A DNA stretch of 44,335 nt. It comes from Desulfobacterales bacterium (GTDB taxonomy: Bacteria > Desulfobacterota > Desulfobacteria > Desulfobacterales > UBA5852). The notes under the pieces were generated by a model that saw nothing but the letters and a program-made list of their open reading frames with translations, did no database searches and had not been told where the DNA came from. The stretch spans positions 1 to 44,335 of the forward strand of contig JASJCD010000002.1 of the NCBI GenBank assembly GCA_030066135.1, written 5' to 3'. Made by a program: the position numbers and the translations under genes. This document shows, one piece after another, positions 1 to 17,152 of this stretch; within the stretch, counting starts at the first letter, position 1, and the number at the start of each line of letters is the position of its first letter.

Positions 1-90
1 GGTCATAACCGGCGAGTACACTAAACATGCAGTCAGTTCATTTAAATGGTTTATGTTTCCAGCAGTAAATTCTTTCCCAAAAAATTAATC

Positions 91-1044
91 TCAGCTCTCC
101 AAGCTGTCCAATTGCCGCCTGAAAAGATCCAGGTCATCAATAACGACAGCTTTTATATTTTCATCTGTTTGCATTATTTTATCAGCGCCAGAACCACCTA
201 TAAAAATTGGAACCTGCCCTTTGACCATACGGCGAATTTTCCGCAGCTCAATCAGCAGTTTGTGCTGGTTGAGACGATGGCAGAGACTTAGCGTGAGTGC
301 GCCCGCATCGATTTTCTGTACGGCGTAGACAATTTCCTCTGAAGGTAGATTGGGACCAAAATAAAACGGTTGCCAACCCGATTCGGTGGCCACGAGCGCG
401 CAAGCCAGAGCGCCAAACTCGTGCCAATGGCCGCTGGGTGTAGCGATAACGATGCGGGGGGCGGCGGCGGACAATTCGACAGTACGCAGCATGTCCCACA
501 GAATCGAACGCACGATCACCGACGCCATGTGCTCGTTGATAATTTTCATCCGACCGGACCGCCAAAGCAGACCGATCTCCCTGAAGAGCGGCATGATCAC
601 TTCCTGTAGGAATGCCTGCCGTGGCATATCGACGGCCGCCTCGTTCAGAACTTTCTCCAGCGCGAGTGAATCCAGGTGTACGACATGCGAGAGGGCCTTT
701 TCTACGATTGCATGGTAGTTACCCTCCGGAACGGCAGCGGGCAGGGATTGATCGTCATTGGGCCCATCACCGGCGCCGGGGGTTCTGGTCTGGTCTCGCC
801 TGACGACGTTCATCAGTTCATCGGTGCTGAGCCGGGCCACGGCAGAGATGTTGTGGCCGCTGTCCACGGCCTGTTTCAGGAGCGCTAAGCGCTGAATATC
901 GCCTTCGGAGTAAAGTCGGCGGTTGGTATGGGAGCGCTCCGGCTTGACAGCGCCATAGCGCTCCTCCCAACTCCGTATATTGTGCGCTTTGACGCCTGAT
1001 TGGGCCGCTACGAATTTGATGGGATATAGTTTTTTCATTTTCAT
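91..1044 (-). CDS. MerR-family transcriptional regulator with C-terminal cobalamin (B12)-binding domain, CarH/LitR-like
   Basis: N-terminal MerR HTH (YPIKFVAAQSGVKAHNIRSWEERYGAVKPERSHTNRRLYSEGDIQRL); LLWRSGRMKIINEH fits the W-x9-EH motif of the CarH cobalamin-binding helical bundle; GHWHEFG fits the xHxxG lower-ligand motif followed by GWQPFYFGPNLP of the B12 fold. Confidence 0.88.
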   Translation of the reverse strand: MKMKKLYPIKFVAAQSGVKAHNIRSWEERYGAVKPERSHTNRRLYSEGDIQRLALLKQAVDSGHNISAVARLSTDELMNVVRRDQTRTPGAGDGPNDDQSLPAAVPEGNYHAIVEKALSHVVHLDSLALEKVLNEAAVDMPRQAFLQEVIMPLFREIGLLWRSGRMKIINEHMASVIVRSILWDMLRTVELSAAAPRIVIATPSGHWHEFGALACALVATESGWQPFYFGPNLPSEEIVYAVQKIDAGALTLSLCHRLNQHKLLIELRKIRRMVKGQVPIFIGGSGADKIMQTDENIKAVVIDDLDLFRRQLDSLES

Positions 1045-1050
1045 GAGGTT

Positions 1051-1079
1051 AATTTATTAAAAAATGTTGCAAATGTCAA
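1051..1079 (-). promoter_or_regulatory. Predicted sigma-70 promoter for the MerR/B12 regulator: TTGACA (1074-1079) - 17 bp - TAAATT (1051-1056)
   Basis: Perfect -35, 17-bp spacer, 4/6 -10 read on the minus strand. Predicted +1 falls at about the ATG (1044) and no Shine-Dalgarno is visible. Confidence 0.5.
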
Positions 1080-1128
1080 TAAGGTGTTTAAAGTTTGTTT
1101 AAATAAATCTTGTAAAACTTTTGTTCAC
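1065..1128. promoter_or_regulatory. Direct-repeat array of TGTnnA elements; candidate CarA/CarH-type operator between the regulator and lon
   Basis: TGT elements at 1065 (TGTTGCAA), 1074 (TGTCAAT), 1085 (TGTTTAAA), 1096 (TGTTTAAA), 1111 (TGTAAAA), 1122 (TGTTCACT); spacings 9, 11, 11, 15, 11. Five of six fit nTGTnnAn, the reverse complement of the nTnnACAn CarA/CarH half-site as I recall it. Confidence 0.55.
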
Positions 1129-1158: not shown

Positions 1159-3690
1159 ATGAGCGATAACAATGATGATATGCCGATAGTGAGCAACACG
1201 AGCAACACGCCAACCCCATCGCTGCTGGACACGGATACCATTCCCATACTGCCCGTTCGTGAGCTGGTGGCCTTTCCTCAGATGACACTGCCTTTCATGG
1301 TATCGCTGGAGTCGGCGCAATTAATCGAGGATGCAGTTAATGCCGACGGCCATATCGGTCTCGTAACGGTCAAGGACGAAGACGCCGAAGATCCTGTTCC
1401 CGGAGAGTTGTTCGAGGTCGGCACCCTGGCCAAAATCATGCATGCCAAAAAAAACAGCGACGGCATCTGGGTGGTACTGCTCAACGCACTTCACCGATTT
1501 CGTATATCGGCCTGGGAGGCAGGCGGTCCTTATCTGCGCGCCCACGTCACGCAGGCTCCCGAGATCGTTGAGTCCGATCTCGAGACCGAAGCCCTGCAGC
1601 GCCAGCTGTTGGTCACTTTTCAGGCGGTCCTGGCGATGACGCCGGACGCTCCCGATGAGATGGGCAAGACGATTGCACAGATCGAGGATCCTCTGCAACT
1701 GGCCTACGTCACAGCCTTCAATATGAAGCTTTCCACCAAGAGGCGCCAGGCCCTGTTGGAACTGGACAGCGTCAATGCCAAACTGAGAGAATTGCTGGCG
1801 CGCCTTGCGCGCGAGAAAGAAATGTTGAGCATCGGCCAGAAGATCCAGACTGAAGTCCGGGAGAAGATGACCAAATCCCAGCGTGAGTACGTTCTGCGCC
1901 AGCAGTTGGACGCTATTAAAAAGGAACTGGGGGAAAACGAGGAGGAATCGACCGAATCCGATGATTATGCGCGGCGGCTCGAAGAAGCGGATCTGCCGAA
2001 AGAGGCCCGCAAAGAGGCGCAGCGTGAGCTCGAACGGATGCAGAACATGTCACCCCAGTCCGCCGAGTACCCCATGATCAAGAATTACCTGGACTGGTTG
2101 ATCGATTTGCCCTGGAACAAGACGAGCGAAGACAACACCGATATAACCGCCGCCCGCGACATCTTGGAGGCCGATCACTTCGGTCTGGACGAAGTCAAGG
2201 AGCGGCTGATCGAGTACCTGGCCGTGCGCCGCCTGATGCAGACGCGCGAAGAGGCATCCTCGTCAGAAGATGACAACCAGGCCCCAGGGGTCATTCTCTG
2301 CCTGGCTGGACCGCCGGGGGTCGGTAAAACCAGCCTGGGACGCAGTGTGGCCCGCGCGCTGGGCCGTTCGTTCACGCGGATGAGCCTGGGCGGCGTACGC
2401 GACGAGGCGGAAATCCGGGGACACCGGCGCACTTACATCGGCGCCTTGCCCGGGCGGATTATCCAGGCCATCAAGCGGGCGGGAACGCGCAACCCGGTTT
2501 TCATGCTGGATGAAATCGATAAGGTCGGCCAGGACTGGCGCGGCGATCCCAGCAGCGCCCTCCTGGAGGTGCTCGATCCGGCCCAGAACGGCGCCTTCCG
2601 CGATCATTATCTGGACGTGGATTTCGATCTGAGCGAGGTGATTTTCATTGCCACGGCCAATCAACTCGATACCATACCAGGGCCTTTGCGTGACCGCATG
2701 GAAATCATCACGCTGGACGGCTACACCGAACTCGAGAAGCTGCAGATCGCCAAACGGCACCTGATCCCGCGTCAGCTTGCGGCCCACCGCCTGCGCGACG
2801 ACGAGGTGACCTTCATTGATGATGCCATCCAAAAGATCATTCAGGACTACACCCGCGAAGCAGGCGTGCGCAATCTGGAGCGCCACATCGCGGCCGTATG
2901 CCGCAAGGGCATCGTCCAGCTGAGCGAAAAGGGCTGGCCGCATGTGGTCATCACTTCCAAAATGGTACGGGCCTACCTCAAGAAGGAACGCTTCGAATCC
3001 GAGTACGCGGAACATATCGCCGTACCCGGCATCGCCACCGGTCTGGCCGTAACCGCTGTCGGCGGCGACATTCTTTACATCGAAGCCTCGCGCATGCCCG
3101 GGACGGGGCGCTTGAATCTCACCGGTCAGTTGGGCGACGTCATGCGGGAGAGCGCCGAGATCGCTCATTCCTATGTACGCTCCCAGGCCGAAGCACTGCA
3201 GATCGATCCAACCCTGTTCGAGAAATCGGATGTCCATCTGCATGTGCCGGCCGGCGCGCTGCCCAAGGACGGCCCCTCGGCGGGAGTGGCCATGACGATG
3301 GCGCTGACCAGTCTTTTCAGCGAACGGCCGGTACGCAGCGAAGTCGGGATCACGGGCGAGGTTACGCTGCGCGGCCGTGTGCTACCGGTGGGAGGCATCA
3401 AAATGAAAGTGCTGGCCGCCCATCGGGCCGGGCTGAAAACCGTCGTCCTGCCCGCGCGCAATCGGCCGGACCTCGATGAACTGCCGGATGAGGTTCGCCG
3501 CGGCATGGAATTCGTGACCGTCGACCACGTTGACGACGCTGTGGCCGTTGCCTTCGCGTCACCACCGGCGCCTGCAGACGACGCCGGCGGCAAAAACGAA
3601 AAACCGGCGGCAGAGGGTTGCAACCGCAATGCCCACCTGGTTCCGCTGGCCTGCCGCGACTGCCATCATGACCCGTCGCTGGCGGGCTAG
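1159..3690 (+). CDS. lon: ATP-dependent Lon protease
   Basis: Lon N-terminal domain (IPILPVRELVAFPQMTLPF), Walker A GPPGVGKTSLGRSVARAL, catalytic PKDGPSAGVAMTMAL. Start set at MSDNNDD (RBS-like gaggtgacgg) rather than the ORF start at 1084. Confidence 0.96.
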   Translation: MSDNNDDMPIVSNTSNTPTPSLLDTDTIPILPVRELVAFPQMTLPFMVSLESAQLIEDAVNADGHIGLVTVKDEDAEDPVPGELFEVGTLAKIMHAKKNSDGIWVVLLNALHRFRISAWEAGGPYLRAHVTQAPEIVESDLETEALQRQLLVTFQAVLAMTPDAPDEMGKTIAQIEDPLQLAYVTAFNMKLSTKRRQALLELDSVNAKLRELLARLAREKEMLSIGQKIQTEVREKMTKSQREYVLRQQLDAIKKELGENEEESTESDDYARRLEEADLPKEARKEAQRELERMQNMSPQSAEYPMIKNYLDWLIDLPWNKTSEDNTDITAARDILEADHFGLDEVKERLIEYLAVRRLMQTREEASSSEDDNQAPGVILCLAGPPGVGKTSLGRSVARALGRSFTRMSLGGVRDEAEIRGHRRTYIGALPGRIIQAIKRAGTRNPVFMLDEIDKVGQDWRGDPSSALLEVLDPAQNGAFRDHYLDVDFDLSEVIFIATANQLDTIPGPLRDRMEIITLDGYTELEKLQIAKRHLIPRQLAAHRLRDDEVTFIDDAIQKIIQDYTREAGVRNLERHIAAVCRKGIVQLSEKGWPHVVITSKMVRAYLKKERFESEYAEHIAVPGIATGLAVTAVGGDILYIEASRMPGTGRLNLTGQLGDVMRESAEIAHSYVRSQAEALQIDPTLFEKSDVHLHVPAGALPKDGPSAGVAMTMALTSLFSERPVRSEVGITGEVTLRGRVLPVGGIKMKVLAAHRAGLKTVVLPARNRPDLDELPDEVRRGMEFVTVDHVDDAVAVAFASPPAPADDAGGKNEKPAAEGCNRNAHLVPLACRDCHHDPSLAG

Positions 3691-3802
3691 AGACGCGCAG
3701 GGCAAGCTGTTGGCTGTCGGGCGGTGGATGCCGGCCGGCAGCTTTCATATTTTAATAGATAACTGAGTAGCAATCCGCGGGTCGCACCGCAAAAATAGGA
3801 GT

Positions 3803-5671
3803 ATGGGTACCATGAAAAAACAACATCGCTTTTCAATCTGGTATGCGATCCTGGGGGTGTGGCTCGTGTTGCTGCTGCACAATATGATCGCCTCTGCATT
3901 CCTGGTTAAAAACATCCCCTACAGCGAATTCGTCAAGCTGGTGGAAGAGGGTAAAGTCGCCGAGATTGCCATTTCCGAAAACGATATACAGGGCAAGATG
4001 GTGGCTTCGGAGGATGGTCTTGACAAGGAAACCCTATTTCGCACCGTCAGGGTCGACGCCGAAATCGCACAACTCCTGGACGCCAACGGTATCAAGTATT
4101 CCGGCCGTATCCAGTCCAATTTTCTGGGGACCCTCATGTCCTGGCTGATTCCGATCGCCCTGTTTCTGGGCATATGGATATTCATGATGCGGCGTTTCCA
4201 ACAGCAGTCCGGTTTCATGCAGATCGGCAAGAACAAGGCCAAGATTTATATGGAAGATGACGTGGGCGTGCACTTTGCGGACGCGGCCGGCGTGGACGAA
4301 TCCAAGCAGGAGCTCGAGGAGGTGACCGCGTTTCTTAAGGAGCCGGAGCGCTACACGCGGGTCGGCGGTCAGATTCCACGCGGTATCCTACTGGTGGGCC
4401 CACCCGGTACTGGCAAGACACTGTTGGCCAAAGCTGTGGCCGGCGAGAGCGGTGTGCCGTTTTTCAGCCTCAGCGGTTCCGAATTCGTGGAGATGTTCGT
4501 TGGGCTGGGTGCCGCCCGGGTGCGCGACCTGTTCAAGCAGGCCAAGGAAAAAGCGCCCTGCATTATCTTTATCGACGAGCTGGATGCTTTGGGCAAAGCG
4601 CGGGGGGTCGCCATGACCGGCGGTCATGACGAACGCGAGCAGACCCTCAACCAGCTGTTGGTGGAACTCGACGGCTTCGATCCCAACGTGGGGGTCATTC
4701 TCATGGCGGCCACCAACCGACCGGAGATTCTGGACCCGGCCCTGCTGCGGCCTGGACGCTTCGACCGTCAGGTGCTCGTCGATCGCCCGGACAAGATCGG
4801 TCGCGCCGACATTCTCAAGATTTATCTCGACAAGGTGGAGACCGAAGCCAACATCGATCCGGAAAAGATCGCCGGCATGACCGCCGGCATGGTGGGGGCG
4901 GATCTGGCCAACTTGGTCAACGAGGCGGCCTTGCTGGCGGTGCGCCGCGACAAACGGACTATCGGCATGGCCGAAATCGAAGAGGCGGTCGAGCGCCTGG
5001 TGGCAGGCCTCGAAAAGAAAAATCGCCTCATCAATGCGGACGAAAAAGAGATTGTGGCCTACCATGAACTTGGGCATGCCCTCGTGGCCATGGCGCTGCC
5101 GGCAACCGATCCTGTTCAAAAGATATCGATCATTCCCCGCGGCATCGCCGCCCTGGGCTATACCATGCAGGTGCCCACCGAAGATCGCTTTCTGCTGCGC
5201 AAGACCGAACTCCAGAATCGTATTGCCACCCTTCTAGGCGGCCGGGCAGCGGAAGAGTTGGTCTTCAACGATATCTCCACCGGGGCGCACAACGACCTCT
5301 CGCGGGCCACCGACATCGCCCGCAGCATGGTCCGGGAGTACGGCATGAGTTCGCGCCTGGGGCAGGTTTACTTCGCCCCCCCGCGGCAGGCCCAGTTTCT
5401 GGGAACGGCAGCGGAAGCCGGACGTGAATACAGCGATGAGACCGCGCAGATCATCGACGAGGAAGTGCGCCGCATCATCGACGATCAATACGCCGTGGCC
5501 CTGCGCATCCTCAGGACCAATCGCGATCTGCTGAATAAAACCGCGAAAACACTGCTGGTCGACGAGGTGATCGCGGGGGATGCGCTTCAGGACCTGGCGG
5601 GCGCCGTTCAGGCGCCTGACCCGGAAGAGACTGTGGTGCCTGACGCCGCCCGGCGCATTGCCGCGGCCTGA
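3803..5671 (+). CDS. ftsH: ATP-dependent zinc metalloprotease FtsH
   Basis: Two N-terminal TM segments, AAA domain [20 protein letters not shown] region [22 protein letters not shown], zinc motif HELGH; AGGAG upstream of the start. Confidence 0.95.
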
Positions 5672-5729
5672 AGCGCCCGCCGTAAAAGAAGGGTGGTGCT
5701 CCGACTGAAATCGGCGTCCCGCTAAAAAG

Positions 5730-5770
5730 GCCCTTGCCGGTATTCTTCCGACGGCAAGGGCTTATTTTTT
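5730..5770 (+). terminator. Rho-independent terminator downstream of ftsH
   Basis: gcccttgccg ... cggcaagggc 10-bp stem followed by ttatttttt. Confidence 0.85.
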
Positions 5771-6007
5771 CCCAAATCCTCAACTTGTATATAAATGAGA
5801 AGCGTTTCGTCTGTTCACGTGTAAGAAAACGAACCAAAAGAAGACGCCCGTGTCCCGCTCAATCCCTCGATGCCTACAAAGAAGAACAACCAAAGTCATG
5901 CCGGATAGACCAGGCTCTTCGCTTGTGGGGCTTGCCCACGACCTTCGGGTTTGCAGGGGGAACACCAATGTGGCGGCTGGCCATTGGACTCGGGTGTTGG
6001 TCGGGTT

Positions 6008-7306
6008 TTAAAATAGGTTTTGGCCCGCGGCCAGGAAGTCCTGGAAGCCCGCCGCGTCGCGGCCGGCCCGATCGAGCCGCCGCACGCCCTCCTCCAGCGT
6101 CTCCAGATCGGCGGCGATCGAAAGCCGCAGAAAATGCAGGCCTTCCGCGCCAATGGCGCCGAAGGAACGACGGTCCATCACGGCCAGGTGGTGCCGGTAG
6201 AGCGCGAACATCTGGAAAAGGGTGGCCGGCGAGGTCTGCCGGCGGGTATCCGACGGAAGCCCGGCAAAGGCCTCCAACGCCCCCAGGCGCTCGCAAAGCC
6301 CCGTGATGTTGGGAAAGAGATAGAAGGCCCCCCCCGGCTTCTGGCAGGTCACGCCGTCGATGGCGTTGAGCCGCGCCAGGATCACGTTCCGCCGTTCTTC
6401 GAAGGTGCGGGCCATTTCAGCCATCCAGGGGCCGGACCGGGGGTTATCCAGCGCCTCGCGACCGCCTTCCTGGTTGTAGGGGGGAATGCAGGAGAAATAG
6501 TTGATGTTCAAGTTTTTGAAGGCGGCGGCCTCCTCGGCAGTGGGCAGTACGGCGTAGCCGATCCGCCCCCCGGTCCAGGCAAACGACTTGGAAAGGCCGC
6601 TGCTGATGATGGTGCGGGCCGCCATGCCGGGAACCGAGGCGATCGAGAAATGGGCCTGCCCGTCAAAGACGATATTTTCGTAAATTTCGTCCGAATAGAC
6701 CCGCACGTCTGCGGGGCATTTCTCCAGAATCACCCGGGCGACAGCCTCGAGTTGCTCCGGCGTGGCCACCCCTCCCGTGGGGTTGGAGGGGAAGTTTAGA
6801 ATGATCAGTTTGGTGCGGGGCGTGACCAGGGCGGCCAGTTCTTCGGCCGTGAAGGTGAAGCCGTTCGCCTCGCGCAGGTGCAGGGGCACGGGTACGGCCC
6901 CCACGTAGCCGATGAAGGACTCGTAGATCGGAAAGCCCGGGCTGGGGTAGATGACCTCGTCTCCGGGATCGCAGTAGATCTGCTGGGCAAACCCGATGGA
7001 GGGCTTGCCGCCCGGAAATACGCAGACCCGGTCGGCGCTGACATCCAACCCGCGGGAGGCGGAAACCTGGCGGGCGATGGCCTGTCGAAAGGACAGGAGA
7101 CCCTGGGGGTCGCAGTAGTGCGAATTGTCTGCTTCGATTTGGCGGATGACTTCATCTTTGACCCAGCTGGGCGCGCTGAAGTCCGGCTCCCCCAGGTTGA
7201 GTTTGATGACGCGGTGGCCCCGGGTTTCGAGCCCGGCGATATGCGGTCCGATCTTAAAGGCGTTTTCCGTTCCGATCGTGGCGGTGCGCTCTGCGTAGAG
7301 GGTCAT
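6008..7306 (-). CDS. Pyridoxal phosphate-dependent aminotransferase (class I/II)
   Basis: MTLYAERTATIGTENAFKIGPHIAGLETRGHRVIKLNLGEPDF..., PSNPTGG, SSGLSKSFAWTGGRIGY Schiff-base region. Start trimmed from ORF 7744 to MTLY with GGAAAGGA upstream. Confidence 0.9.
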   Translation of the reverse strand: MTLYAERTATIGTENAFKIGPHIAGLETRGHRVIKLNLGEPDFSAPSWVKDEVIRQIEADNSHYCDPQGLLSFRQAIARQVSASRGLDVSADRVCVFPGGKPSIGFAQQIYCDPGDEVIYPSPGFPIYESFIGYVGAVPVPLHLREANGFTFTAEELAALVTPRTKLIILNFPSNPTGGVATPEQLEAVARVILEKCPADVRVYSDEIYENIVFDGQAHFSIASVPGMAARTIISSGLSKSFAWTGGRIGYAVLPTAEEAAAFKNLNINYFSCIPPYNQEGGREALDNPRSGPWMAEMARTFEERRNVILARLNAIDGVTCQKPGGAFYLFPNITGLCERLGALEAFAGLPSDTRRQTSPATLFQMFALYRHHLAVMDRRSFGAIGAEGLHFLRLSIAADLETLEEGVRRLDRAGRDAAGFQDFLAAGQNLF

Positions 7307-7498
7307 CAGGGGTCCTTTCCATGGCGCGCGTATGGGCGGGTTAAAGGGCGCGATTATGGCACGCGGGCGTTCAAAGATCAATCGATGCGGTTTCAACCGC
7401 GGACGGGAGGGGAGTTGATGTTTTGCATACCTTGGGATACGGTTACGGCCGGCGATCGCAAATGCTTCCCAACCACCCATCTTGCGAGAGGTCTGACC

Positions 7499-8797
7499 AT
7501 GGAAATGGAACAAATCGCCCGGCAGGCCAAGGCGGCAGCCATTCAGCTGGCGGCCGCCGACAGCGATGCCAAGAATAGCGCCCTGGCCAACATTGCCCGG
7601 GCGCTCAAAGACCGGTCCCACGCTATTCTGGCCGCCAATCAGGCCGACCTGGAGCGTTCGGAACGCGAGGCGCTGGCCGCTCCGCTGTTGAAGCGCCTGC
7701 GCTTCGACGCCGCCAAAATCGACGAAGCCTGCGAGGGGCTCCAAAGCCTGATACGTCTGGACGACCCGGTGGGGGCCACCCTGGAGGCCACCGAACTGGA
7801 CGACGACCTGACCCTCTACCGGGTCAGCCGCCCCATCGGCGTGATCGGCGTGATCTTCGAATCGCGACCGGATGCCCTGGTGCAGATTTCTTCCCTGTGT
7901 CTGAAAAGCGGCAATGCCGTGCTGCTCAAGGGCGGCAGCGAAGCCGCCGAAACCAACCGCGTGCTGGCCGATACCATCACACAGGCCGGGCAGGAAGCCG
8001 GCATGCCCGCCGGCTGGCTCAACCTAATGGAGACCCGCGCGGATGTGGCCGCCATGCTGGGGATGGACGCCTTCATCGATCTGATCATTCCCCGGGGCAG
8101 CAACGAATTCGTTCGCCATATCATGGACAATACCCGCATTCCGGTCCTGGGCCATGCGGACGGGATCTGCCATGTCTATATCGACCGTGCGGCCGACCCC
8201 GACATGGCCCGCCGGATTGCGGTGGACAGCAAGACCCAGTATGTGGCCGTCTGCAATGCCGCCGAAACCCTTCTGGTGCATGCCGACATGGCCGAAAGCC
8301 TGTTGCCGGCGCTGAAGGCCGATCTGGAGGCCAAAGGCGTCGAGATCCGCGGCTGCGAACGGACGGCCGCCATCATTGCGGTCAATCCAGCCACCGCCGA
8401 AGACTGGCAAACCGAGTATCTCGACCTGGTGGTGTCGATCCGGGTGGTGGACGGGCTGGATGCGGCCATCGACCACATCAACCGCTACGGCTCGGGCCAC
8501 ACCGATGTGATCGTGACCGCCGACCGCGCGCTGGCCCGGCGTTTCATGGACCTGGTGGACACCGCCGATGTCTTCGTAAACTGCAGCAGCCGCTTCAGCG
8601 ACGGCTTCCGTTTCGGTTTGGGGGCCGAGGTGGGGATCAGCACCAACAAGATTCACGCCCGGGGGCCGGTGGGGCTGGAAGGGTTGCTGATTTACCAGTG
8701 GCGCCTGGTGGGCGACGGTCAGATCGTGGCCGACTACAGCGGGGCCGAGGGGCGGGCTTTCAAGCATATCAAACTGGACAAAGATTTCGAGATCTGA
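7499..8797 (+). CDS. proA: Glutamate-5-semialdehyde dehydrogenase (gamma-glutamyl phosphate reductase)
   Basis: MEMEQIARQAKAAAIQLAAADSDAKNSALANIARAL..., PIGVIGVIFESRPDALVQISSLCLKSGNAVLLKGG, LGAEVGISTNKIHARGPVGLEGLL. Start trimmed to MEMEQ. Confidence 0.96.
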   Translation: MEMEQIARQAKAAAIQLAAADSDAKNSALANIARALKDRSHAILAANQADLERSEREALAAPLLKRLRFDAAKIDEACEGLQSLIRLDDPVGATLEATELDDDLTLYRVSRPIGVIGVIFESRPDALVQISSLCLKSGNAVLLKGGSEAAETNRVLADTITQAGQEAGMPAGWLNLMETRADVAAMLGMDAFIDLIIPRGSNEFVRHIMDNTRIPVLGHADGICHVYIDRAADPDMARRIAVDSKTQYVAVCNAAETLLVHADMAESLLPALKADLEAKGVEIRGCERTAAIIAVNPATAEDWQTEYLDLVVSIRVVDGLDAAIDHINRYGSGHTDVIVTADRALARRFMDLVDTADVFVNCSSRFSDGFRFGLGAEVGISTNKIHARGPVGLEGLLIYQWRLVGDGQIVADYSGAEGRAFKHIKLDKDFEI

Positions 8798-8852
8798 TGG
8801 TGAGAACGGTGACGGCTTATCTCAGATCGGGGGATGAAGTCCAGCCACCGGG

Positions 8853-8893
8853 TTCGGAATCGGAATCGGAATCGGGATCGCAATCGGAATCGG
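8853..8893. repeat. Imperfect hexamer tandem repeat (tcggaa)n downstream of proA
   Basis: ttcggaatcggaatcggaatcgggatcgcaatcggaatcgg. Confidence 0.85.
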
Positions 8894-8989
8894 CTTTCGG
8901 CATGGGGTAATTTCGACCCCGATTCCGAGTAACGCGCGTCTGGTAATGCGGATCGCATCTCCCGCGCAAGTGCTCCTATACCGGAGGTC

Positions 8990-9253
8990 TTAAAGACTGC
9001 CGGTGTTTTTTTGGGCTTGTTCGATCAGGTCGATCAGGCTGGTGAGTTTTTCGGGCGGGCGGCGGTGGCCCAGGGCCTCGAACTCTTCGCGGGTCAGGCA
9101 GGCGGCCAGATGGCCGGCCACATCGAAACGCTGCCACCAGCAGTCCAGGATTTTGAAGCAGGGCTTGGCATCCTTTTCCGGCTGACGGCAGTAGCCGAAG
9201 TTGACCGGGCCACCCAAACGGGGGCAGCGCATTTCGAGTTCGTCGAAGAACAA
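8990..9253 (-). CDS. Conserved hypothetical protein, small, four cysteines in the N-terminal half
   Basis: MRCPRLGGPVNFGYCRQPEKDAKPCFKILDCWWQRFDV...; compact ORF. Start may be 9253 or the internal MRCPRL (9232). Confidence 0.6.
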   Translation of the reverse strand: MFFDELEMRCPRLGGPVNFGYCRQPEKDAKPCFKILDCWWQRFDVAGHLAACLTREEFEALGHRRPPEKLTSLIDLIEQAQKNTGSL

Positions 9254-10981: not shown

Positions 10982-13900
10982 ATGAAACCGATTCGCTGCT
11001 TTTTGCGGGTGGCCGTGGTTTTAGCCCTGATGGCCATCGCCCCGTATATTCACGCGCAGGAACCCCTCCAAATTGTCTACAACACCGGGGTCGCCCCGCT
11101 GAAATTCGAAGACGCCGATGGACAGCCCCAGGGCCTGTTTCCCGATCTGTGGCGCGAATGGGCCCGCAAGTCCCGGCGTGAAATCGCCTTTATTCGGGTG
11201 GAAACCTTCGCGGAATCCCTCGAGATGGTGCGCCGCGGTGACGCGGACCTGCATGCCGGGTTGTTCAAGACACCCGAGCGGGAAGCCCACCTGGCTTATT
11301 CCCAGCCGATTCTGACGCTCGACTACCATATTTTCACCCATCCGAGCATCCAGCCTCTGGAGAATCTGGATCAAGCTGCAGGATTTCTTGTCGGCCTGGT
11401 TCGCGGCGGCTATACCGAAGATTTCGTGCGGGCCCGCATACCATCGCGCCTGCTTGTATTTTACAGCAGCAACGAGGCGATGTTCCGGGCCGCGCTGCGC
11501 GGCGAAATCAAGGTGTTCGTGAGCAGCAAGATCAGCCTGCTCTATTTTTTGAGTGAGCAGCGCCTGGCCAACATCTTCGGATACACCAAGGGCCGACCAC
11601 TTTACACCCAGACCTATTTCGCTGCCACAGCCAGGCCCAACAACGATTTGATCGCGGCCGTGAACGACGGGCTGCAGTCCATCCTTCCCGATGACCGTCG
11701 CCGAATGGAAGACAAGTGGATCCTCCGCAAGGCCAAGACCATTCCCATGGATTTCGCCGTGAATCTTTCGGTGGACGAGGCCGCCTACCTGGCCCGCACC
11801 GAGACGATCAAAGTCCACAACGAAACCGACTGGCCCCCGTTCAACTTCAACCAGAACGGTACCCCCCGGGGTTACTCGGTCGACTACATCGAGCTGCTGG
11901 CGGCCAAGACCGGGCTGGAGATCGAGTTCGTCAGCGGCCCCACCTGGGACGAATTCCTGAAGCGGATGAAAACGGGCGAGCTGGACGTCATGCTCAACAT
12001 TGCCATGACGCCCGAACGGAAAGGCTTTCTGACCTTTACACCGCCCTATCTCCAGATGATCCAGGCCCTCTACACCCGGGAGGACTTCCCCGCTGTGGAC
12101 GGGATCGAGGATCTCTTCGGACGGCGTCTGGCCGTGCCACGGGGCTATTTCCTGCAGGAGATGGTGGCCGAGCGTTATCCCCGGATCGAGGTGCTGGAAG
12201 TCGAGAATACCACCGAAGCCGTCCTGGCGGTATCCACCGGCAAGGCTGACGCCCTGTACGATCTGATGCCGGTGGTCAACCATATCAAGGACCAGCTGCA
12301 GGTCACCAATCTCAGGGTCGGCGGCGATCTGGGCATCGCCGCGGGCAAACCCATCCCCCTGCACATCGCCACCCGCAGCGACGATGTGCTCCTGGCCCGC
12401 ATTCTGGCCAAAGGCATGAATTTGATCACCGATGCCGAGCAGCGTGAACTGCATTGGCGCTGGATCGAGCCCCGCGCCAGTTCCCGAGAAACGGCCGATC
12501 TGACGACCGAGGAGCGGCGGTGGCTCGAAGACCATCCGCAAATCCGCCTGGGTGTCGATCCCACCTGGCCGCCTTTCGAGCAAAAGAACGCCGACGGTGA
12601 CTATGCCGGGATCACCGCGGACTATGTGCGCCTGCTGAACCAGCGGCTGGGCACCCGCATGCAGCCCATGATGGGGCTTTCATGGACCGAGGTGCTGGCA
12701 AAGGTCCAAAATGGCGAGTTGGATGTGGTGCCCTGCATTTCGCCGACACCCGAGCGGGCGCGATTCCTGCGCTTCACCAAACCCTACCTTGTTTTTCAGA
12801 TGGTGATCGCGACCCATAAGGACGCCCCTTTTATAAGCGGCCTGGCGGATTTGAACGCGGAGACGGTGGGTGTCGTCGAAGGCTATGTCAGCCACGCGTC
12901 GATTGCGCGCGACTACCCCCAGATCGAAATCCGCACCTTCGGCAATGTCGAAGAAGGCCTCCAGGCCGTCGCCAACGGACAGATAAAGGCCTTTGTGGAC
13001 AATCTGGCCTCGATTACCTTCATTATGAATCGCATGGATCTGGACAGCCTGAAAGTGGCCTCCACAACGGAATACACCTTCGATCTGGCCATGGGGGTGC
13101 GGCCCGACTGGCCCGAGCTTCTCACCATCCTCGAGAAGGGGCTGCAAACCATCGGCAAAAGCGAGCGGGCCCAGATCCACGACCGCTGGATCAACGTGAT
13201 CATCGAGCGCGCGGTGGACTGGCCTTTTGTGTGGCGGATCATTTCCATCGTCGCCGCCGCGGCAGGCGCCCTCGTGCTGATGGTTCTCTTGTGGAATCGC
13301 CGCCTGGCCCAGGAAGTCGAGGAACGACGCCAGGTTCAGCGCCAGCTGACCAAGGTCTCCCAGGCGGTCGAGCAGAGTCCGATTTCGGTTGTGATCACGG
13401 ACAACAATGGCCGCATCGAATACGTCAACCCGAAATTCGTCGAGTTCACGGGCTACACCATGGAAGAGGCGCGGGGACAGACGCCGCGCATTCTGAAAGC
13501 CAGCGATGTCTCCGCGTCGGTTTACGACGAAATCCGGCGAACGATCGACGGCGGCCGGATCTGGTCAGGCGAGTTGCGCAACCGCCACAAGAACGGTGAG
13601 TTGTTCTGGGAACGGGCGGCCATCGCCCCGATTTTCGACGACCACGGGAGTATCAGTCATTTCGTGGCCATGGAGGAGGACATCACCGAGCGCAAGGAGC
13701 AGGAGGAACGTTTCCGGGCCCTGCTCGAAGCGGCCCCGGATGCCATGGTGATCGTCGACCGCGGCGGTTCCATCGTGCTGGTCAATTCCCAGACCGAGCG
13801 TCTTTTCGGCTATCGGCGCGAAGATCTGCTGGGGCAGCCCATTGAAATCCTCGTGCCCGAGGAAAAACGTGCCGGGCACCCGGTGCTGCGCGACCAGTAC

Positions 13901-16900
13901 CTCGCCAGGGCCCAGGTGCGGGCCATCGGCGAAGCCCTCGATCTGATGGCCCAGGCCAAGGACGGCACCCTTATCCCCGTCGACATCAGCCTGAGCCCCA
14001 TCGACACCCGGGAAGGAACGCTGGTGGTGGCTTCCGTGCGCGACATCACCGAACGCAAGAAAGCCGAGGAAGCCATCCGGGCCCAGAGGGATTTCGTGGA
14101 AACGGTGGTCAACAGCATACCGGACGCGATCTCCATCCTCGATGTCGAAACCGGCGCCATCGTTGACGCCAACGAGGCCTTTCTGGCGGAGATGAACAAA
14201 CCCCGGGAAGAGGTCATCGGCAAGCCATGTTACGAGATGACCCATGGCCTGCAGGAAATCTGCGCGCCGCCGCACCACGAGTGCCCCATGCTCGAAACCA
14301 TGCACACCGGGCGCAAGTGCATGACCGAGCATATTCATACCGGCCCCCGGGGTGAGAAGCTGATCATGGAGGTTTCCACTTTTCCCATCCGGGCTGAAGA
14401 CGGGGCGGTGCGCCAGGTGGTGCATGTGGCCCGGGACATTACGGAGCGCAAGCAGGCCGATGAAAAAATCCGGGATTCCCAGCGGCAGCTCTCCCAGATC
14501 GTCAATTTTCTGCCCGATCCAACCTGGGTGGTGGATTGCGACGGCAAGGTGGTTTCCTGGAACCAGGCCATCGAAAAACTGACCGGTGTGCCTTCCGATC
14601 AGATGGTGGGCCGGAGCAACTTCGAGTACGCGCTGCCTTTCTACGATGAGCGGCGCCCCGTGCTGATCGACCTCGTGCGGGAATGGCAGGAGTCTTACCG
14701 GGAAAAATACCTGACGGTGAAAAAGGACGGTGAGAACCTCAAGGCCGAATCCTATCACCCGCACCTCGGGGACGGGGGGGTCTATCTAAACGCCACCGCC
14801 AGCCTGCTATACGATACGGCCGGCAACGTCACCGGGGCCATCGAGTCGCTGCGGGACATCACGGAGAGCAAGCACCTGCAGGAGGAACTGCTGCAGGCCA
14901 AGCAGGCGGCGGACGAGGCCAGCCAGGCCAAGAGCGATTTTCTGGCGAACATGAGCCACGAGATACGCACGCCCATGAACGCCGTGATCGGCATGGCGCA
15001 TCTGGCACTGAAGACGGAGCTCACCCCCAAGCAGCGCGACTACGTGAGCAAGATCCAGTCCTCGGCCAATTCGCTCCTGGGGATCATCAACGACATCCTG
15101 GACTTCTCCAAGATCGAGGCCGGCAAACTGGACATGGAGGCCGTCGACTTCAGCCTGGAGGACGTCCTGGAGAATCTGGGCAACCTCGTGACGGTGAAGG
15201 CGGCCGAGAAGAAGGATCTGGAAGTTCTTTTTTCCACGGGGGTGGATGTGCCGCGTTTCCTGGTGGGCGATCCGCTCCGGCTCGGTCAGGTGCTGCTCAA
15301 CCTGGTCAACAACGCCATCAAGTTTACCGAAACGGGTGAGATCGTGGTGTCCACGATCCTGGAATCACGCCAGCCGGATCATGTGATGCTGCGCTTTACG
15401 GTGAGCGACACGGGCATCGGGATCACCGAGGCGCAGCAGGCGCAGCTGTTTCAGTCCTTTTCCCAGGCGGACACCTCGACCACCCGCAAGTACGGGGGCA
15501 CCGGACTGGGCCTGGCCATCAGCCAGCGCCTGGTGAAGATGATGGGCGGCGATATCCGTGTGGAGAGCGAACCGGGCCGCGGCAGTCGCTTTGTCTTTAC
15601 GGCCCGCTTCGAATTGGGCGCGGAGAAGGCCAAGAAGCAGTTTGTGCCGCACGCTGATTTGCGGGGCATAAAGGTGCTGGTGGTGGATGACAACGCCACC
15701 AGTCGCAATATCTTCCGGGAGATGCTGGAGTCGTTTTCCTTCGAGGTGGCCCAGGCGGCCTCGGGGCAGGAGGGGCTGAGCGAGTTGGAGAACGCACCCG
15801 CGGATGCGCCCTACGAGCTGGTGATCATGGACTGGAAGATGCCACAGATGGACGGTATCGAAACGGCACAGCGGATCAAGACCCACCGGGCGCTGGCCAA
15901 GATTCCGGCGGTGGTCATGGCCACGGCCTACGGCCGCGAGGAGGTCATGCGCCAGGCGGAGAAAGCGGGGCTGGAGGGGTTTCTGATCAAACCGGTCAAC
16001 GCCTCGGTGCTCTTCGACACGATTATTCAGGCCTTGAACCCGGAGCACGACGATAGCGGTGAAGCCGACGCCGGCCCGGCCGAGGCTGGCCGGGACGTTG
16101 CCCATCTGTCCGGTTGTCGCGTGCTCCTGGTGGAAGACAATGAGATTAACCAACAGGTGGCCAAAGAGATCCTGGAAGGGGCCGGCATCGTGGTCAGTCT
16201 GGCCGACGACGGACGCGCCGGTGTCGAGGCAATCCAGCGTGGGGATTTCGATGCCGTACTGATGGATATTCAGATGCCGGTGATGGACGGCCATGAGGCC
16301 ACGCGCGTGATCCGTGCGAACCCTGAATTCAAGGATTTACCGATCATCGCCATGACCGCTCACGCCATGACCGGGGATGCGGACAAAAGCCTGGAAGCCG
16401 GGATGAATGGGCATGTGACCAAACCCATCGACCCGGATCAGCTGTTTGAAACCCTGCTGCAATGGGTGGCATCGAAAAAACCGTCAGGCGATCCGCCGGA
16501 GACGCCCGCTTCCGTGGTCCCGGAACCGGCTGCGGCGGATCATCTACCCGCCCACCTGCCGGGATTTGAACTCGACGCCGGCCTCAGGCGGCTGCAGGGC
16601 AACCGGTCCCTGTACCGCCGCTTGATCATTGATTTCGCCGCCAAATGCCAGGGGGCGAACGAAGAAATCCGGCAGGCCCTCGACGATGGCGATCTGGCGC
16701 ACTGCCACCAGCTGGTGCACGGCATCAAGGGGGCGGCCGGCAACCTGGCGGCCGCGCGTCTCCAGGCGGCGGCAACGGACATGGAGGCCCTGGTCAAGGA
16801 TGCGACCGTTATGCCGGCGGCCGAACGCCTCGATCCGGCGCTGAAGGGTCTGGCGGCGTGTCTGGATGAGATCGTTGCCGCCGCCGGGTTTCTGGGCGCG

Positions 16901-17152
16901 GTCCCTGAAACAGGTGATGACGCCCCGCCTGAAGATGTTATCTCCGTCGTACCGCAGGCGTTGCGCCGGGAAATCGCCGGGCGTATTCGCGCGGCCGCCG
17001 ACATTGGCGATGTGGGCGCGCTGAGCACCATTGCCGCCGATCTTGAAAGCCGTTCAACGGACTACCGGCCTTTGAGCCGGCGTCTGGCCTCCCTGGCCGA
17101 CGATTTCGATCTGGATGGGGTCGGGGGGTTGGCGGACGAATTAGATGAATAG
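10982..17152 (+). CDS. Hybrid sensor histidine kinase: signal peptide, 3x SBP_bac_3-like periplasmic domains, TM, 4x PAS, HisKA, HATPase_c, 2x REC, HPt
   Basis: Three solute-binding repeats ([73 protein letters not shown]); PAS repeats; His[38 protein letters not shown] and [11 protein letters not shown]; HPt [17 protein letters not shown]. Confidence 0.95.

Follow-up and report, generated by a model that had tools for sequence, protein, structure and literature searches.

CarH-type regulators are known mainly for carotenoid genes. The regulator described here faces instead an accessory protease unit, and regulators of a sister clade face cytochrome bd. Published CarH operators consist of tandem 11-bp repeats of the form nnnnTnnACAn; three such repeats are reported for CarH of Thermus thermophilus, one of them containing the -35 element (PMC9304148). 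In the T. thermophilus protein His132 is needed for light-driven monomer formation, and the light response requires oxygen for its completion (PMC10442372). A second cobalamin photoreceptor, CtMerR of Chloracidobacterium thermophilum, has been reported for its structure and photochemistry, and the same paper proposes GxxW/EH/GxxH/GxxxP as a cobalamin-photoreceptor (SignatureFinder) signature (PMC11796333).

The window, by which we mean the whole 44,335-nucleotide stretch of DNA that was analysed, is contig 31 of a 3.98-Mb draft genome from the Desulfobacterales. Three of its genes concern us here:

91 to 1044, minus strand: CarH-like MerR regulator of 317 amino acids (Pfam, PDB sequence and fold matches, motifs).
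1159 to 3690, plus strand: lon, an accessory paralogue in a clade of its own (Pfam, NCBIfam TIGR00763, tree).
3803 to 5671, plus strand: ftsH, which follows lon and is one of two copies in the genome (Pfam; the other is on G000:C20).

The regulator gene and lon are divergent, with a 114-bp intergenic region between them. The lon start was placed at ATG 1159, which has a ribosome-binding site (GAGGTGA) at 1148-1154 and agrees with the starts of the orthologues. The longest open reading frame begins at GTG 1084, but this start was dropped because the operator would fall within the gene and ATG 1159 is better supported. With lon beginning at ATG 1159 the repeat array is intergenic and lies upstream of lon, as the preliminary description of this DNA had it. 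At the other side of the regulator gene, the last 69 bases of another contig (G000:C195; L145, right end) are identical to window positions 91-159 and window 1-90 is unlike that contig; the mismatch is an assembly fork at the regulator stop codon. The same contig codes for a small secreted EF-hand protein, and a two-repeat site near 7280 lies just upstream of the EF-hand gene. Elsewhere in the window, positions 10982-17152 encode a hybrid sensor kinase of 2056 aa, which combines several periplasmic solute-binding and several PAS domains, two receivers and one Hpt.

The regulator joins a MerR DNA-binding domain to a four-helix B12-binding_2 domain and a Rossmann B12-binding domain, and so has the CarH architecture of a MerR-type domain fused to a helical and a Rossmann cobalamin-binding domain (PMC9304148, PMC8156234). 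Pfam returned MerR_1 and B12-binding_2, with B12-binding below the cut-off (28.8 vs 32.1). The top PDB sequence matches were to T. thermophilus CarH. An AlphaFold model (mean pLDDT 83.7) likewise had T. thermophilus CarH, free and DNA-bound, as its top fold matches, with TM-scores of ~0.54-0.63 for the full chain and, by target length, ~0.73-0.83 for the cobalamin domain. The Wx9EH motif is present as W161 RSGRMKIIN E171 H172. All four elements of the light signature occur in the window protein as GLLW, EH, GHWH and GPNLP. The classic B12 motif D/ExHx2G/Px41SxT/Vx22-27GG is altered: the regulator reads HWHEFG x41 SLC x27 GG, in which the spacing and the cobalt-ligand His are present, D/E is replaced by His and T/V by Cys. 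Among NCBIfam models the CarH equivalog NF052513 was the top match, with 112 bits where its cut-off is 400. The position of CarH His132 is occupied by Arg, and it is not His in any relative found. Given the Arg in place of His132, the altered classic motif and the NCBIfam score, we call the protein CarH-like rather than CarH. CarH in the strict sense is also an AdoCbl-dependent oligomer that dissociates in light (PMC9304148, PMC8156234); lacking His132, any light response of the regulator would have to differ from that of T. thermophilus CarH.

The preliminary description had listed TGT elements at 1065, 1074, 1085, 1096, 1111 and 1122, with spacings of 9, 11, 11, 15 and 11. These positions are exact, five of the six elements do read TGTnnA, and those at 1085 and 1096 are both TGTTTAAA. 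It had further proposed that the whole series is a CarA/CarH half-site array. The half-site and its 11-bp phase stand, but the extent does not, since there are three repeats and not five or six. The repeats are conserved in orthologous regulator-lon regions, whereas a lack of conservation had been named at the time as a refutation, and the comparison gave the same division: 1074, 1085 and 1096 are kept, and 1065, 1111 and 1122 are not. The elements are as follows:

1073 to 1083, minus strand: direct repeat 1, TGTCAA on the plus strand and TTGACA on the minus strand; invariant in 15/15 aligned operators.
1084 to 1094, minus strand: direct repeat 2, TGTTTA on the plus strand; 12/12 core lon/ftsH loci.
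1095 to 1105, minus strand: direct repeat 3, TGTTTA on the plus strand; T22, G23, T24, T26, A27 and A28 in 11-12 of 12 loci.
1065 to 1067, plus strand: TGT of the preliminary description, outside the conserved array; shared by G004 and absent from other orthologues.
1111 to 1127, plus strand: TGTnnA pair (1111, 1122) of the preliminary description; not conserved, absent at that position in orthologues and probably due to chance.

Since the orthologues keep just three elements (1074, 1085 and 1096), the six-element array was dropped, as was an in-phase fourth repeat at 1107, which is not conserved. From the aligned sequences we take the real element to be about 1073-1105, with the TGTs at 1074, 1085 and 1096 only. 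There, three perfect tandem 11-bp direct repeats of the nnnnTnnACAn type lie over a promoter element, as in CarH operators.

An intergenic region rich in A and T might come to resemble such a motif by chance. This one has a G+C content of 27%, TGT is frequent in it, and three of the six elements first listed are probably chance occurrences. In dinucleotide shuffles of the 114-bp region, however, three TGTnnA at 11 bp appeared in only 0.023% (a frequency of 0.00023 for this locus alone), so that the shuffled control, which had been suggested as a means of exposing a phasing that arises at high frequency, found it rare. When every spacing from 7 to 15 bp was allowed, 0.21% of the shuffles contained a TGTnnA triple. 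An 11-bp triple with at most one mismatch was found a single time in the whole 44-kb window, where chance would give 0.01. The triple is moreover found at 12 further protease-linked loci. We put the probability of chance resemblance close to nil, since conservation already refutes it.

The conservation was established by searches with the regulator or its profile at three levels, covering 390 genomes from the order, 291 from the class and 395 from the phylum; at 36 regulator loci the divergent neighbour gene was inspected. At 14 of these lon faces the regulator, and at one (G002) ftsH does. Perfect TGTnnA-N5-TGTnnA-N5-TGTnnA arrays were found at 13 of these 15 protease-facing loci, all in Desulfobacterales, and the remaining two have near-perfect triples (11 and 10 of 12 positions). 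No triple at a spacing of 6-17 bp other than 11 was found at the 15 loci. The spacing scan, which had a 200-bp limit, counted 12 triples; the G147 array lies farther away and is included in the 13/15. The first TGT is 29-31 bp from the regulator start codon at 9/15 loci. The conserved core, TTGnnn-nTGTCAAnAnnnTGTTTAnnnTnTGTnTAA, carries a mean information of 1.24 bits/column, compared with 0.37 in the flanks. Because the regulators at these loci are only ~38-64% identical to the window protein and sit on long branches, the conservation of the operator does not reflect recent common descent of the DNA. An operator model found few sites per genome, and the strong ones were all at regulator loci; matches at training loci arise by construction and were not used as evidence.

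Other loci were recovered by these searches. A contig scan with the single regulator protein returned one locus, L046, from a Desulfobacterales metagenome bin and on the same contig as G004. Outside the order, the phylum-wide search identified one further sampled genome (G730) with a close relative of the regulator; there a fasciclin-domain gene adjoins it and the array has two repeats. No array accompanies the second-type paralogues (e.g. G000:C282), most of which no longer have the ligand His, and so they have no bearing on this operator. Relatives of the regulator in G168 and G199 (L078 and L081) are divergent to succinate dehydrogenase/fumarate reductase-like genes and have degenerate arrays with two full repeats each. 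A perfect three-repeat site on G000:C220 (L143, about 2911-2938) is an orphan, intergenic and before a secretin-like ORF. A perfect triple on G000:C41, GC-richer and beside a kinase gene, was taken as chance and not as an operator.

Two predicted promoters overlap the array:

1051 to 1079, minus strand: regulator promoter, TTGACA (1079-1074), 17 bp, TAAATT (1056-1051); from a scan, with a -10 of the form TAnnnT at most orthologues.
1067 to 1094, plus strand: lon promoter, TTGCAA (1067-1072), 16 bp, TAAAGT (1089-1094); from the alignment of relatives.

The TTGACA-17-TAAATT combination was the sole promoter-like pair in a scan of 900-1300, in which 0.9 were expected by chance. The preliminary description had put this predicted -35 at 1074-1079, overlapped by the array; the minus strand does read TTGACA there. 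The predicted transcription start is approximately at the regulator ATG at 1044, and the mRNA would thus be near-leaderless. The lon promoter of the window is weak when taken alone (8/12), and it aligns with promoters of the TTGACA-16-TAAATT type in relatives. The lon-side TTG at -7 to -5 and the T, A and T of the -10 are found at 12/12 loci, and several relatives have TTGACA. The spacers are fixed, at 16 and 17 bp, in the two promoter architectures that overlap the operator. Repeat 1 holds the regulator -35 and sits in the lon promoter spacer, repeat 2 overlaps the lon -10, and repeat 3 is outside the hexamers of both promoters, near the predicted lon transcription start. That repeat 3 is conserved nonetheless speaks for a protein-binding array in addition to promoters. 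Window 1073-1105 is therefore described here as, very probably, a conserved three-repeat CarH-type operator common to two divergent promoters.

At MerR-activated promoters the spacer is typically 19-20 bp. Since the DNA-binding domain of the regulator is of the MerR family, it might act as a classical MerR activator (MerR, CueR, ZntR), twisting a lon promoter with an over-long spacer that contains a dyad. The spacers of 16 and 17 bp do not have this length, and the sites are direct repeats, with no palindrome in the spacer. We consider activation of this kind very improbable.

The genome has three full-length lon genes, including that of the window, and two ftsH genes; the lon/ftsH pair of the window is an accessory copy. 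In a tree with nine module Lons, the regulator-linked Lons formed one fully supported clade apart from other Lons, and this clade co-occurs with the regulator across deep branches. One ftsH was counted in G005 and in G006, which have no close regulator, and at least two in each of the six sampled genomes with the regulator. The related sister clade of regulators faces cydA (cytochrome bd; Pfam-confirmed for one), and there the operator recurs together with a TTGACA-16 promoter; two of these loci have perfect triples and one has a double. Furthermore, a perfect triple in G147 (G147:C227:3080-3117; L122 1501-1538) lies ~190 bp before a gene for an M50 site-2-type protease with CBS domains. This site has a TTGACT-16-TAGCTT promoter and no adjacent regulator gene, and it was not in the training of the operator model. 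A target promoter can thus carry the operator without autoregulation. A literature search, with subscription journals mostly outside its coverage, found no paper that links CarH to lon or to cydA.

These findings bear on whether the operator might serve the regulator's own promoter only, with lon controlled otherwise and its proximity coincidental. The regulator -35 is within every aligned operator and the lon promoter hexamers of the window are weak, both of which would suit such an arrangement. The TTG (-7 to -5) and the last T of the -10 (+20), however, lie outside the half-sites, face lon and are invariant (12/12), which argues for a real lon promoter. The M50 protease gene with its perfect operator and no adjacent regulator, and the co-occurrence of the lon clade with the regulator, also speak against it. 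Overall we regard exclusive autoregulation as quite unlikely. As the operator overlaps both conserved divergent promoters, joint repression of the regulator and lon would be the natural reading of the half-site, the phase, the conservation and the promoter overlap. The preliminary description had inferred that an AdoCbl-dependent oligomer represses both itself and lon here; the comparison supports this in part, and we take most of it to be sound, with joint repression probable and the AdoCbl dependence plausible.

We consider it likely that the neighbouring regulator represses both promoters jointly, with AdoCbl as cofactor. The AdoCbl-loaded protein, as an oligomer lined up along the three 11-bp repeats, would cover the regulator's own -35 as well as the spacer and -10 of lon, and both the regulator and the accessory lon(-ftsH) unit would be kept off. 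Cleavage of the Co-C bond by light or by light plus oxygen, or a shortage of AdoCbl, may then deplete the loaded form and release both promoters. In an anaerobe, the oxygen need of T. thermophilus CarH would lend appeal to a light-plus-oxygen trigger.

The same operator and the same joint repression could also respond to a signal other than AdoCbl photolysis. The regulator might be CarA-like, B12-independent and released by a partner protein, or it might sense another ligand or a redox state. The absence of His132, the two altered positions of the classic B12 motif and the Pfam B12-binding score under its cut-off are all compatible with this. The cobalt-ligand His is lost, moreover, in three lon-linked relatives (G007a, G147 and G319), two of which have a perfect or near-perfect operator. 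G147 has lost nearly all B12 residues, and since G147 and G007a retain the operator without the ligand His, dependence on AdoCbl does not extend to the whole group. On the other hand, the close orthologues and nearly all of the lon-linked group retain both the cobalt-ligand His and the Trp...Glu-His cap, the four published light-signature elements are complete in the regulator, and the genome has a cobalamin adenosyltransferase gene and so makes the adenosyl form. We think a different signal unlikely. AdoCbl and light dependence of the regulator are plausible from its sequence; for light as the trigger itself our estimate falls a little short of even.

A microbial rhodopsin gene is present in a carotenoid/retinal cluster in G000, G004, G092, G128 and G007 (cluster sites L142 (G000:C174) 3288-9018, L152, L153, L154 and L156). 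The cluster includes polyprenyl synthase, crtI and crtB, to which relatives add lycopene cyclase and beta-carotene dioxygenase, and in G000 mevalonate genes adjoin it. The closest solved relatives of the rhodopsin are xanthorhodopsin-named and sodium-pumping rhodopsins, and its sequence NWLIDVPMLLIQ fits the N-D-Q sodium-pump motif. Between genes of their carotenoid/rhodopsin clusters, G000, G004 and G147 have two-repeat TGTnnA sites (11 bp) (L142 4271-4298 and 4355-4377; L152 13923; L155 12300), and one of those in G147 overlaps TTGACA-17-TACCAT ahead of the rhodopsin gene. It is possible that these sites are further CarH-type operators.

The oxygen need of CarH (PMC10442372), the operators before lon, ftsH, cydA and the M50 gene, and the two-repeat versions before rhodopsin and carotenoid genes lead us to a tentative and rather doubtful wider proposal: the Desulfobacterales cobalamin sensor may be a light-and-oxygen coincidence detector that acts through one operator type on Lon/FtsH/M50, cytochrome bd and some rhodopsin/retinal clusters. 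The tie between regulator and protease spans deep divergence, within an order whose members are mostly anaerobes. If the proposed repression is true, B12 chemistry would serve anaerobes as a light or oxygen stress sensor for protein turnover, and a B12-based switch would be extended from the control of carotenoid pigments to protein quality control. The operator is small and well defined, so the hypothesis is directly testable, and the missing His132 offers a natural variant for the question of DNA release without the bis-His state.

Of the known systems, CtMerR shares with the window regulator a MerR-type domain with a cobalamin-binding domain and the GxxW/EH/GxxH/GxxxP elements (PMC11796333). 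CtMerR was also among the fold matches, and neither protein has a bis-His light state. T. thermophilus CarH has the same domain order, predicted fold, Wx9EH, cobalt-ligand His and GxxxP, and its operator likewise consists of three tandem 11-bp TnnACA repeats with a -35 in one of them. The window regulator differs from it in having ~24% identity in the fold alignment, no His132 and HxHxxG in place of ExHxxG, and in facing a protease gene rather than carotenoid genes. CarH and CarA of Myxococcus xanthus and other myxobacteria also have 11-bp repeat operators at their own or divergent promoters, with the -35 within a repeat (PMC9304148), but their targets are carotenoid genes, unlike that of the window regulator. 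In contrast to the myxobacterial operators, those of the Desulfobacterales combine a perfect triple with a second conserved promoter on the opposite strand.
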